From a virus: a stretch of 35,488 nucleotides of DNA. The position numbers and the translations under genes were made by a program. Of the stretch, positions 33,606-34,471 are shown piece by piece; the stretch's first letter is position 1, and each line of letters opens with the position of its first letter. Location of the stretch: IMG/VR virus record IMGVR_UViG_3300010354_000260, positions 1 through 35,488 of that record; one strand, 5' to 3'. The notes beneath the pieces are model-generated. The model searched no databases. It saw only the letters and a program-made list of their open reading frames with translations, and was not told the origin of the DNA.

Positions 33606-34019
33606 ATGCAGACATTTGTCCCCTACCCAGATATCCGCGAATCAGCCATAGTGCTTGACAGGCAAAGGCTCGGCAAGCAAAGAGTGGAGACATTCCAGCT
33701 CCTGCGGGCAATATCAAACGAGTCACTCGGCTGGAGGAATCACCCGGCAGCAAAAATGTGGCGTGGACACGAATCTGGCTTAGTTGCCTATGGACTGGCT
33801 GTCTGCACCGAGTGGATTTCCAGAGGATACAAAGACACGTGCACCGAGAAGATTTTGGCTTATGGAGAACCGGATGAAAACAACATGCCGGCGTGGTGGG
33901 GGGATGAGGCTGTACACTCATCCCATAGGGCAAACTTGTTGCGCAAACTCCCCGACCACTACCGTCAGTTTGGTTGGACAGAGGACCCATCAATGCCCTA
34001 TGTATGGCCAGAGCTGTAG
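33606..34019 (+). CDS. MSMEG_6728-family protein (pyrimidine dimer glycosylase-like)
   Basis: A 137-residue protein beginning M-Q-T-F-V-P-Y-P-D and containing L-D-R-Q-R-L-G-K-Q-R-V-E, W-R-N-H-P-A and M-W-R-G-H-E, the conserved blocks of a family found in actinobacteria and phages that is related to the pyrimidine-dimer DNA glycosylase (T4 DenV-like) group. Likely role: recognition or repair of damaged DNA; direct evidence for this branch is lacking. It starts 11 bases after the preceding stop. Confidence 0.82.
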   Translation: MQTFVPYPDIRESAIVLDRQRLGKQRVETFQLLRAISNESLGWRNHPAAKMWRGHESGLVAYGLAVCTEWISRGYKDTCTEKILAYGEPDENNMPAWWGDEAVHSSHRANLLRKLPDHYRQFGWTEDPSMPYVWPEL

Positions 34020-34046: not shown

Positions 34047-34385
34047 ATGCCAGTAGAGCTAACAAAAGACACATATGATGAATTCATTAACGCGGCTAGC
34101 ACCCCAGTAATTGTGGATTTCTGGGCACCATGGTGCGGGCCATGCCATCGACTATCTCCAGCCATAGAGGACCTGTCCGTGGAGATGGCAGAGGAAGTAT
34201 CCTTCGCCAAGGTGAACATTGATGATTTTCCCGAGCTGGGTGCTCGCCACGAGATTAGGTCAATTCCGGCGCTAATCCTTTTTAAGGGTGGCGAATACAT
34301 TGGTCGCATACAGCTCAGCGGAAGTTTTGCCAAACAGAACGTCCAAGACCACATCCGAATAGCCATCGCTGGCGACAGCAACTAA
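34047..34385 (+). CDS. trxA: Thioredoxin
   Basis: 112 residues with the active site W-A-P-W-C30-G-P-C33 and the cis-proline loop R-S-I-P-A-L. AGGAG lies 8 bases before ATG 34047. It should reduce disulfides, and the obvious client here is the class II ribonucleotide reductase at 89-2014, whose C-terminal cysteine pair needs thioredoxin. Length is typical for the family. Confidence 0.96.
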   Translation: MPVELTKDTYDEFINAASTPVIVDFWAPWCGPCHRLSPAIEDLSVEMAEEVSFAKVNIDDFPELGARHEIRSIPALILFKGGEYIGRIQLSGSFAKQNVQDHIRIAIAGDSN

Positions 34386-34398
34386 AACAGCGATGGCT
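34361..34398. repeat. 11-bp perfect inverted repeat spanning the trx stop
   Basis: AGCCATCGCTG at 34361-34371 is exactly complementary to CAGCGATGGCT at 34388-34398, with a 16-base loop that contains the thioredoxin TAA. There is no T-run after it, so it is not a standard terminator. Its right arm includes the first bases of the tRNA-like acceptor stem. Confidence 0.75.
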
Positions 34399-34471
34399 GG
34401 AGTATCGGCTCACTCTTATAAAGTGTAGAAACCGTAGAGGTGACACGCGGGTTCAAATCCCGCCTCCAGCA
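34396..34471 (+). tRNA. tRNA-like element, possibly tRNA-Ile (TAT), D-arm not found
   Basis: Acceptor stem GCTGGAG/CTCCAGC and a perfect T-arm GCGGG TTCAAAT CCCGC are present, and total length (76) is normal. A CACT/AGTG stem with the loop CTTATAA gives an anticodon TAT with T33 in place, which would read the Ile codon ATA. I cannot draw a normal D-arm: only 8 bases lie between the acceptor and this stem, while about 21 bases follow it. It could be an unusual tRNA, a degenerate tRNA, or a tRNA-like regulatory RNA. Confidence 0.5.

Follow-up and report, generated by a model that had tools for sequence, protein, structure and literature searches.

A phage tRNA-Ile(UAU) with a probably permuted interior, in which half of the D-arm lies beyond the anticodon arm

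Close to the end of a viral DNA of 35,488 nucleotides (IMG/VR record IMGVR_UViG_3300010354_000260, positions 1 to 35,488; the whole stretch is called the window below), a thioredoxin gene (trx) is followed by an element that resembles a tRNA and offers no place for an ordinary D-arm. What kind of RNA this is, and what became of its D-arm, are the questions raised by this locus. A preliminary description had noted well-formed acceptor and T-arms, an anticodon-type loop (CTTATAA), and an 11-bp inverted repeat sharing bases with the acceptor stem. Direct reading of the sequence agrees as far as the arms are concerned: the element possesses a 7-bp acceptor stem, a T-loop of the GTTCRANY type, and an anticodon arm with U33, as functional tRNAs do, and it lacks a D-arm hairpin between positions 9 and 26 of the canonical cloverleaf. 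Its sequence is GCTGGAG TAT CGG CT CACT CTTATAA AGTG TAGAAA CCG TAGAGGTGACA C GCGGG TTCAAAT CCCGC CTCCAGC A. The Rfam tRNA model assigned it 37.3 bits (gathering threshold, 29) but recovered no ordinary cloverleaf; the sequence could be aligned only if the D-arm was left out and 17 nt were inserted ahead of the T-arm, which bears out the reported absence of a D-arm from its usual place. With the same model, the window's two ordinary tRNAs scored 69 to 74 bits. ARAGORN reported these two in the window and not the element, and a permissive Rfam scan of the element found no family better than tRNA.

The D-arm is missing from its usual place because its 5′ strand and loop seem to have been relocated (Table 1). 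Downstream of the anticodon arm, the second strand of the D-stem (34432-34434, paired with 34406-34408 and with compensatory changes among relatives) is followed by the series U-A14-R15-Y(Y)-G18-G19-N20-..-A21 and then by Y48 and the T-arm. In the window copy, R15 is located at 34437, G18 and G19 at 34439-34440, U20 at 34441, and A21 at 34445, and U34405 stands opposite U34435, giving a D-stem of only 3 bp plus U.U, a shortness that speaks against the permuted reading. The D-loop signature in canonical order, the pair between positions 15 and 48, and the identity of N20 (see below) therefore point to a displacement of block 10-21 behind block 22-47: the canonical order 1-9, 10-21, 22-47, 48-73 becomes 1-9, 22-47, 10-21, 48-73. 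Compared with canonical class I tRNA-Ile(UAU) and tRNA-Arg, the element has in common the acceptor, anticodon, and T arms, U8, A14, R15-Y48, G18 G19, A21, the T-loop, and the identity bases N20 and N73; it differs in the swap of the two blocks, in a D-stem that encloses the anticodon arm so that the D-loop directly precedes Y48, and in an anticodon stem of 4 bp plus Y.U. Judged by sequence comparison, the element is a real phage tRNA-type RNA for isoleucine with half of its D-arm across the anticodon arm, and we consider it very probable (roughly 85%) that it represents a functional tRNA-Ile(UAU) of the phage, with a permuted interior set within a fixed frame of acceptor stem and T-arm.

Table 1. 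Coordinates of the permuted tRNA, its parts, and neighboring features in the window
Feature	Position	Strand	Remark
Single ORF of 7630 aa	7163-30055	+	Two thirds of the window; Pfam domains only NUDIX, RNase_T exonuclease, and DUF3626; giant polyprotein-like phage protein
Pyrimidine-dimer DNA glycosylase family protein	33606-34019	+	Pfam Pyr_excise; just upstream of trx
Thioredoxin gene (trx)	34047-34385	+	PHROG 22 thioredoxin domain; upstream of the tRNA, syntenic in relatives
Hairpin of trx 3′ end and tRNA leader	34361-34398	+	Arms 34361-34371/34388-34398, perfect 11 bp
Whole tRNA-Ile(UAU), probably permuted interior	34396-34471	+	Mature ends 1-73; CCA not encoded
Acceptor stem, 5′ strand (1-7)	34396-34402	+	7 bp with 34464-34470
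U8 A9	34403-34404	+	In 76/76 unique matches listed; free in the anticodon-arm pattern
D-stem strand, canonical 22-25 (TCGG)	34405-34408	+	C34406-G34408 pair with 34432-34434
Anticodon arm	34411-34425	+	4-bp stem; loop CTTATAA at 34415-34421
Anticodon TAT	34417-34419	+	Reads AUA
Linker TAGAAA (43-47 region)	34426-34431	+	Connects anticodon arm and relocated D-stem strand
D-stem strand, canonical 10-12 (CCG)	34432-34434	+	Relocated 3′ of the anticodon arm
Relocated D-loop	34435-34445	+	U13 A14 R15 .. G18 G19 U20 .. A21
Y48	34446	+	Levitt partner of R15
T-arm	34447-34463	+	Loop TTCAAAT

The rearranged structure was examined in an alignment of 66 diverse, nonredundant sequences (A2), the members of which had been picked with the cross helix present. 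Of the predicted pairs, 99.4% form, and 18 of 20 pairs show compensatory double changes; the covariation score is 0.895, whereas shuffles score 0.217 and slid structures no more than 0.19, and RNAalifold, unaided, recovers the identical 19 helix pairs. Compensatory changes occur at six of the seven acceptor pairs (98.5% paired), four of the five T-arm pairs (99.7% paired), and all four anticodon-stem pairs. The D-stem is 100% paired in A2, and both partners change in all three of its pairs and in the Levitt pair, the stem occurring as CGG/CCG, CCC/GGG, CTC/GAG, ACC/GGT, or AGG/CCT. R15-Y48 is A-U in 37 and G-C in 29 members of A2; in 144 sequences it is A-U in 91, G-C in 52, and A-C in a single case. 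Since A2 was picked for the helix, the unbiased figure comes from a scan that used the anticodon arm only and produced at least 119 stretches, with 76 unique sequences having enough flank. Among the matches listed, the full 3-bp cross helix is present in 75 of these 76 without selection for it, the acceptor stem in 76, and U8, A9, A14, R15, A21, and Y48, none of which is set by the scan pattern, likewise in 76; the GG at 18-19, also not fixed by this pattern, is present in 75. Several other nucleotides of the class were fixed by search patterns, and the invariance of linker columns T31, G33, A35, and A36 in A2 was mostly imposed in this way. A chance origin is excluded, because a descriptor of the full structure matched nothing on either strand of 4.0 Mb of shuffled sequence and none of 1,914 ordinary tRNAs. 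A covariance model of the permuted form, R1, yields bimodal scores, with 45 to 97 bits for permuted and at most 35 bits for ordinary tRNAs; the window element reached 91.8 bits (E value of 2e-24), the window sequence having belonged to the training set of R1.

The same data bear on two other ways of drawing the interior. A tRNA that had simply lost its D-arm, as mitochondrial tRNA-Ser(AGY) has, with the extra nucleotides before the T-arm being an unrelated variable region, would account for the empty interval between 9 and 26 and for the Rfam alignment. We regard this as very unlikely: G18 G19 and a D-stem do exist, downstream of the anticodon arm, the extra sequence has the D-loop signature, with its Levitt partner, arranged in canonical order, and the 3 nt with which this sequence begins pair with the D position and undergo compensatory changes, so that the covariation contradicts it. 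D-armless metazoan mitochondrial tRNAs resemble the phage form in having no D-arm between 9 and 26 (PMC4013460), whereas the phage form keeps a D-stem strand and D-loop beyond the anticodon arm. A class II tRNA, with a degenerate D-arm and an extended variable arm, would need the hairpin ACCG/CGGT, which the sequences of the window and of close relatives permit; across relatives, however, only 46.2% of cells are paired, against a shuffle mean of 46.0%, with no excess of covariation, so that this fold is refuted and its probability is negligible. Folded on its own for minimum energy, the window copy also takes a different interior (-27.1 versus -23.5 kcal/mol for the permuted fold), which counts against the permuted form; this fold was rejected, with only 73% of its pairs formed across relatives and a covariation score of 0.191.

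The rewired layout is common to hundreds of phage sequences, in IMG/VR contigs as well as isolated phages, with one or two copies per whole record. A pattern left free at the helix and at the anticodon matched 39 viral contigs. Helix, anticodon stem, and T-arm were present in every one of them, although the test was crude in that a few of the acceptor matches comprised only five or six of the seven pairs. The anticodons of these contigs were TCT, TCG, and ACG (Arg), and genome contigs added TAT, GAT, and CAT. Throughout, only Arg and Ile anticodons were found, CAU being presumed to be Ile2: anticodon-open scans with N36 other than U gave Arg only (ACG, TCG, and CCG; GCG by hand), and the type A scan for anticodons with A35 gave none besides xAU. 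Type B, with linkers AA and TAGNA, is confined to Arg(TCT), and of its 67 pattern matches 59 are fully paired; type C, with GC/GAGAA linkers, comprises Arg(ACG, TCG) in an unchanged layout. Divergent copies of permuted Arg(TCT) with other linker lengths were observed at L264:1405-1481, L331 (LilMartin 85682-85756), and L352:1495-1573; their R1 scores of 45 to 58 bits suggest more subtypes than the three described. Some Arg(TCG/ACG) copies (L361, L365, L366, L382, L420, and similar ones), with linkers such as GC/GAGAA, have C.A as the innermost D-stem pair and apparently represent a form with a 2-bp D-stem.

Isolates with a permuted tRNA are the Streptomyces phages Coruscant, Jay2Jay, EGole, LilMartin, and Mildred21, the Microbacterium phages Magritte, A3Wally, and Zooman, and also Agrobacterium Atu_ph04, Salmonella SSBI34, Stenotrophomonas SOVA965, Limnohabitans DC31, and Alishewanella Slicko01. 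Depositors had left these tRNAs unannotated or called them tRNA-Leu (EGole), tRNA-Phe (Mildred21), or tRNA-Ser (Slicko01). Cellular genomes of one phylum contained none (0 of 297, in a scan without a built-in positive control), and those of a second contained one in 295, solely the seeded genome; the class therefore looks viral, though permuted tRNAs occur on a few metagenome-assembled genome (MAG) contigs, of which at least L247 carries phage-type genes.

Relatives of the window site itself were collected in IMG/VR via relatives of the thioredoxin. Orthologues of the permuted tRNA were found in L002, L003, L005, L010, L015, L027, L028, and L032. Downstream of trx, two groups can be distinguished, one with the permuted element (L002-L005, L010, L015, L027, and L028) and one with an ordinary tRNA-Ile(TAT) at the corresponding site (L020, L021, L024, L025, and L026). 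The anticodon arm of the window equals that of L027 except for one U-A/U-G change, and the ordinary tRNAs of L020, L021, and L026 have this arm in the L027 form. In L015, CCC..GGG takes the place of CGG..CCG in the window, which was the first hint of a helix between the "D" and "variable" regions. Most relatives lie away from trx, for instance beside a nucleotidyltransferase or an HNH gene or within tRNA clusters. Two of the origins proposed for the element, a decaying tRNA and a 3′ structure of the trx mRNA that mimics tRNA, could draw on the absence of a canonical D-arm and on the 3-bp overlap with the hairpin. Neither withstands these comparisons, and together they retain next to no probability: decay is rejected because the element is conserved, under strong purifying selection and with compensatory changes, in dozens of phages, and the mimic of the trx message because most relatives are situated elsewhere.

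The perfect inverted repeat is real, with a predicted energy of -19.4 kcal/mol (z score of -5.1) in the window, and it is likewise strong in L002, L003, L005, L010, and L015 (z scores from -3.8 to -5.6 over the set including the window). That it and the tRNA exclude each other, as first proposed, was an overstatement, because only 3 of its 11 bp (34396-34398, in the acceptor strand) overlap the tRNA; the remaining 8 bp (-11.4 kcal/mol) are compatible with the tRNA fold and can coexist with it. The suggested processing switch was abandoned on account of this small overlap and because the hairpin was not found in L027, L028, and L032, all of which retain the permuted tRNA. The hairpin is a local leader or 3′-end structure outside the mechanism of the tRNA; it perhaps assists processing by RNase P or shields the trx mRNA.

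The identity nucleotides agree with the anticodons. N20 is A in 70 of 70 Arg versions and U in 74 of 74 Ile/CAU versions, and A73 is present in 72 of 72 Ile versions, so that N20 and N73 match the anticodon. A20 is the main determinant for bacterial ArgRS (PMC9976931), and the ordinary phage tRNA-Arg of these loci mostly has A20 as well. CCA is encoded in 53 of the 70 Arg copies. With respect to decoding, AUA is the commonest Ile codon of the window genes (287 of 660). Among 52 cases from loci that have six or more ordinary tRNAs (many on partial contigs), the anticodon of the permuted tRNA was otherwise absent in 48; in L201, L207, and L219, Arg(ACG) and Arg(TCT) occur in permuted form only, amid 11 to 22 ordinary tRNAs. 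In a 156-kb relative (G010), no ordinary tRNA-Ile(TAT) was found, and a CAT tRNA that could be Ile2 was present. Jay2Jay is a counterexample to gap filling, having an ordinary tRNA-Ile(GAT) beside the permuted one at 75237-75313, and in some phages the permuted tRNA is therefore not the sole reader.

This redundancy, the high conservation, and the adjacency of an RNA-repair gene of the RlaP family in Streptomyces phages would also suit a conserved mimic outside translation, either a tRNA-nuclease decoy or an RNA with a regulatory role. We consider such a role unlikely, given that the aminoacyl identity nucleotides are kept per isotype, CCA is often encoded, gaps in the tRNA set are filled, and an ordinary tRNA-Ile is replaced at one site. 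As far as sequences can tell, the members of the permuted class are most likely working elongator tRNAs.

In ordinary tRNA, the base triples 9-12-23, 45-10-25, and 8-14-21 and the pair 15-48 make neighbors of the residues concerned. In the permuted tRNA, block 22-47 (3′ D-strand, anticodon arm, and variable linker) would precede block 10-21 (5′ D-strand and D-loop), and because the new joints 9-22, 47-10, and 21-48 connect residues that are close neighbors in ordinary tRNA, we infer that a near-normal L-shape would be reached. Maturation would proceed by RNase P and CCA addition, host IleRS (ArgRS for the Arg versions) would charge the product, and the window tRNA would decode AUA. The arrangement likely arose when 10-47 was duplicated in tandem and the first copy of 10-21 and the last copy of 22-47 were then lost.

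Known permutations of RNA offer both precedent and contrast. Circularly permuted tRNA genes, whose transcripts are restored to the standard form, are established (PMC3978253; PMC10085705), and the phage element might analogously be spliced or circularized into a canonical tRNA. This appears highly improbable, as the two acceptor strands stand in their usual order in every aligned sequence, the encoded order itself forms the covarying structure with mature ends, and an intron signal was not seen. Both cases involve tRNA segments permuted in the DNA, but the circularly permuted genes swap the outer halves (PMC3978253), whereas the ends of the phage tRNA are normal and its interior would stay permuted. 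Closer in kind are natural non-circularly permuted hammerhead ribozymes, before which no such case was known among natural RNAs according to Eckert et al. 2023 (PMC10085705). They, too, are natural RNAs with reordered internal segments and apparently retained core contacts (PMC10085705); the present case differs in being a tRNA, in being widespread in phages, and in preserving amino acid identity. Of what defines a non-circularly permuted RNA, segment order and covariation were seen here, and the three-dimensional contacts we infer. No description of a tRNA with a permuted interior was found in the open-licence literature, and one may exist elsewhere; the permuted-interior tRNA is treated here as a structurally novel form of tRNA.

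Why such a form evolved may have to do with defense: evasion of a tRNA-targeting defense is a possible reason. The permuted tRNA-Arg and tRNA-Ile could be replacements resistant to nucleases or to recognition, keeping their contacts with synthetase and ribosome and giving up the contiguous D-arm that a host tRNA-targeting defense or a tRNA-modifying enzyme would need, a tentative proposal that we think rather unlikely. Phage tRNAs that withstand tRNA-targeting defenses likewise supply the translation machinery, and in the available portions of the sources (PMC10264068, PMC11555353) they are either canonical or altered in anticodon-loop bases, with no change of topology described there.

The cloverleaf is regarded as among the most conserved secondary structures in biology. 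If the reading as a functional permuted tRNA is true, the L-shape rather than the cloverleaf would be what translation requires, equal contacts being attained by a different chain order, and tRNA would join the hammerhead ribozyme among natural RNAs with a non-circular permutation. Cloverleaf-based tRNA finders miss or misname this class of phage Arg and Ile tRNAs, so that surveys of the tRNAs carried by phages and of codon compensation are incomplete. Permuted tRNAs may also serve as a scaffold for orthogonal tRNAs and as a direct test of host factors that read the D-arm.

Some observations concern the neighborhoods of individual copies. A partnership with homing endonucleases was considered and set aside as too weak, an HNH-like ORF lying within 600 nt of 10 of 108 permuted and 24 of 511 ordinary tRNAs. 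The MAG contig L247, binned with Methylophaga, carries a permuted CAT tRNA beside phage-type HNH and LAGLIDADG genes, and L241, binned with Prevotellaceae, carries a permuted TAT tRNA near genes for a glycosyl hydrolase and an AAA protein. In Streptomyces phages, a small nucleotidyltransferase gene (L261:961-1482, L262:953-1474, and L265:957-1478) is located directly upstream of a permuted tRNA-Ile(GAT); its product matches RlaP, of the RNA-repair polymerase-beta family, with weak scores around the cutoff, and a link to tRNA damage is possible.
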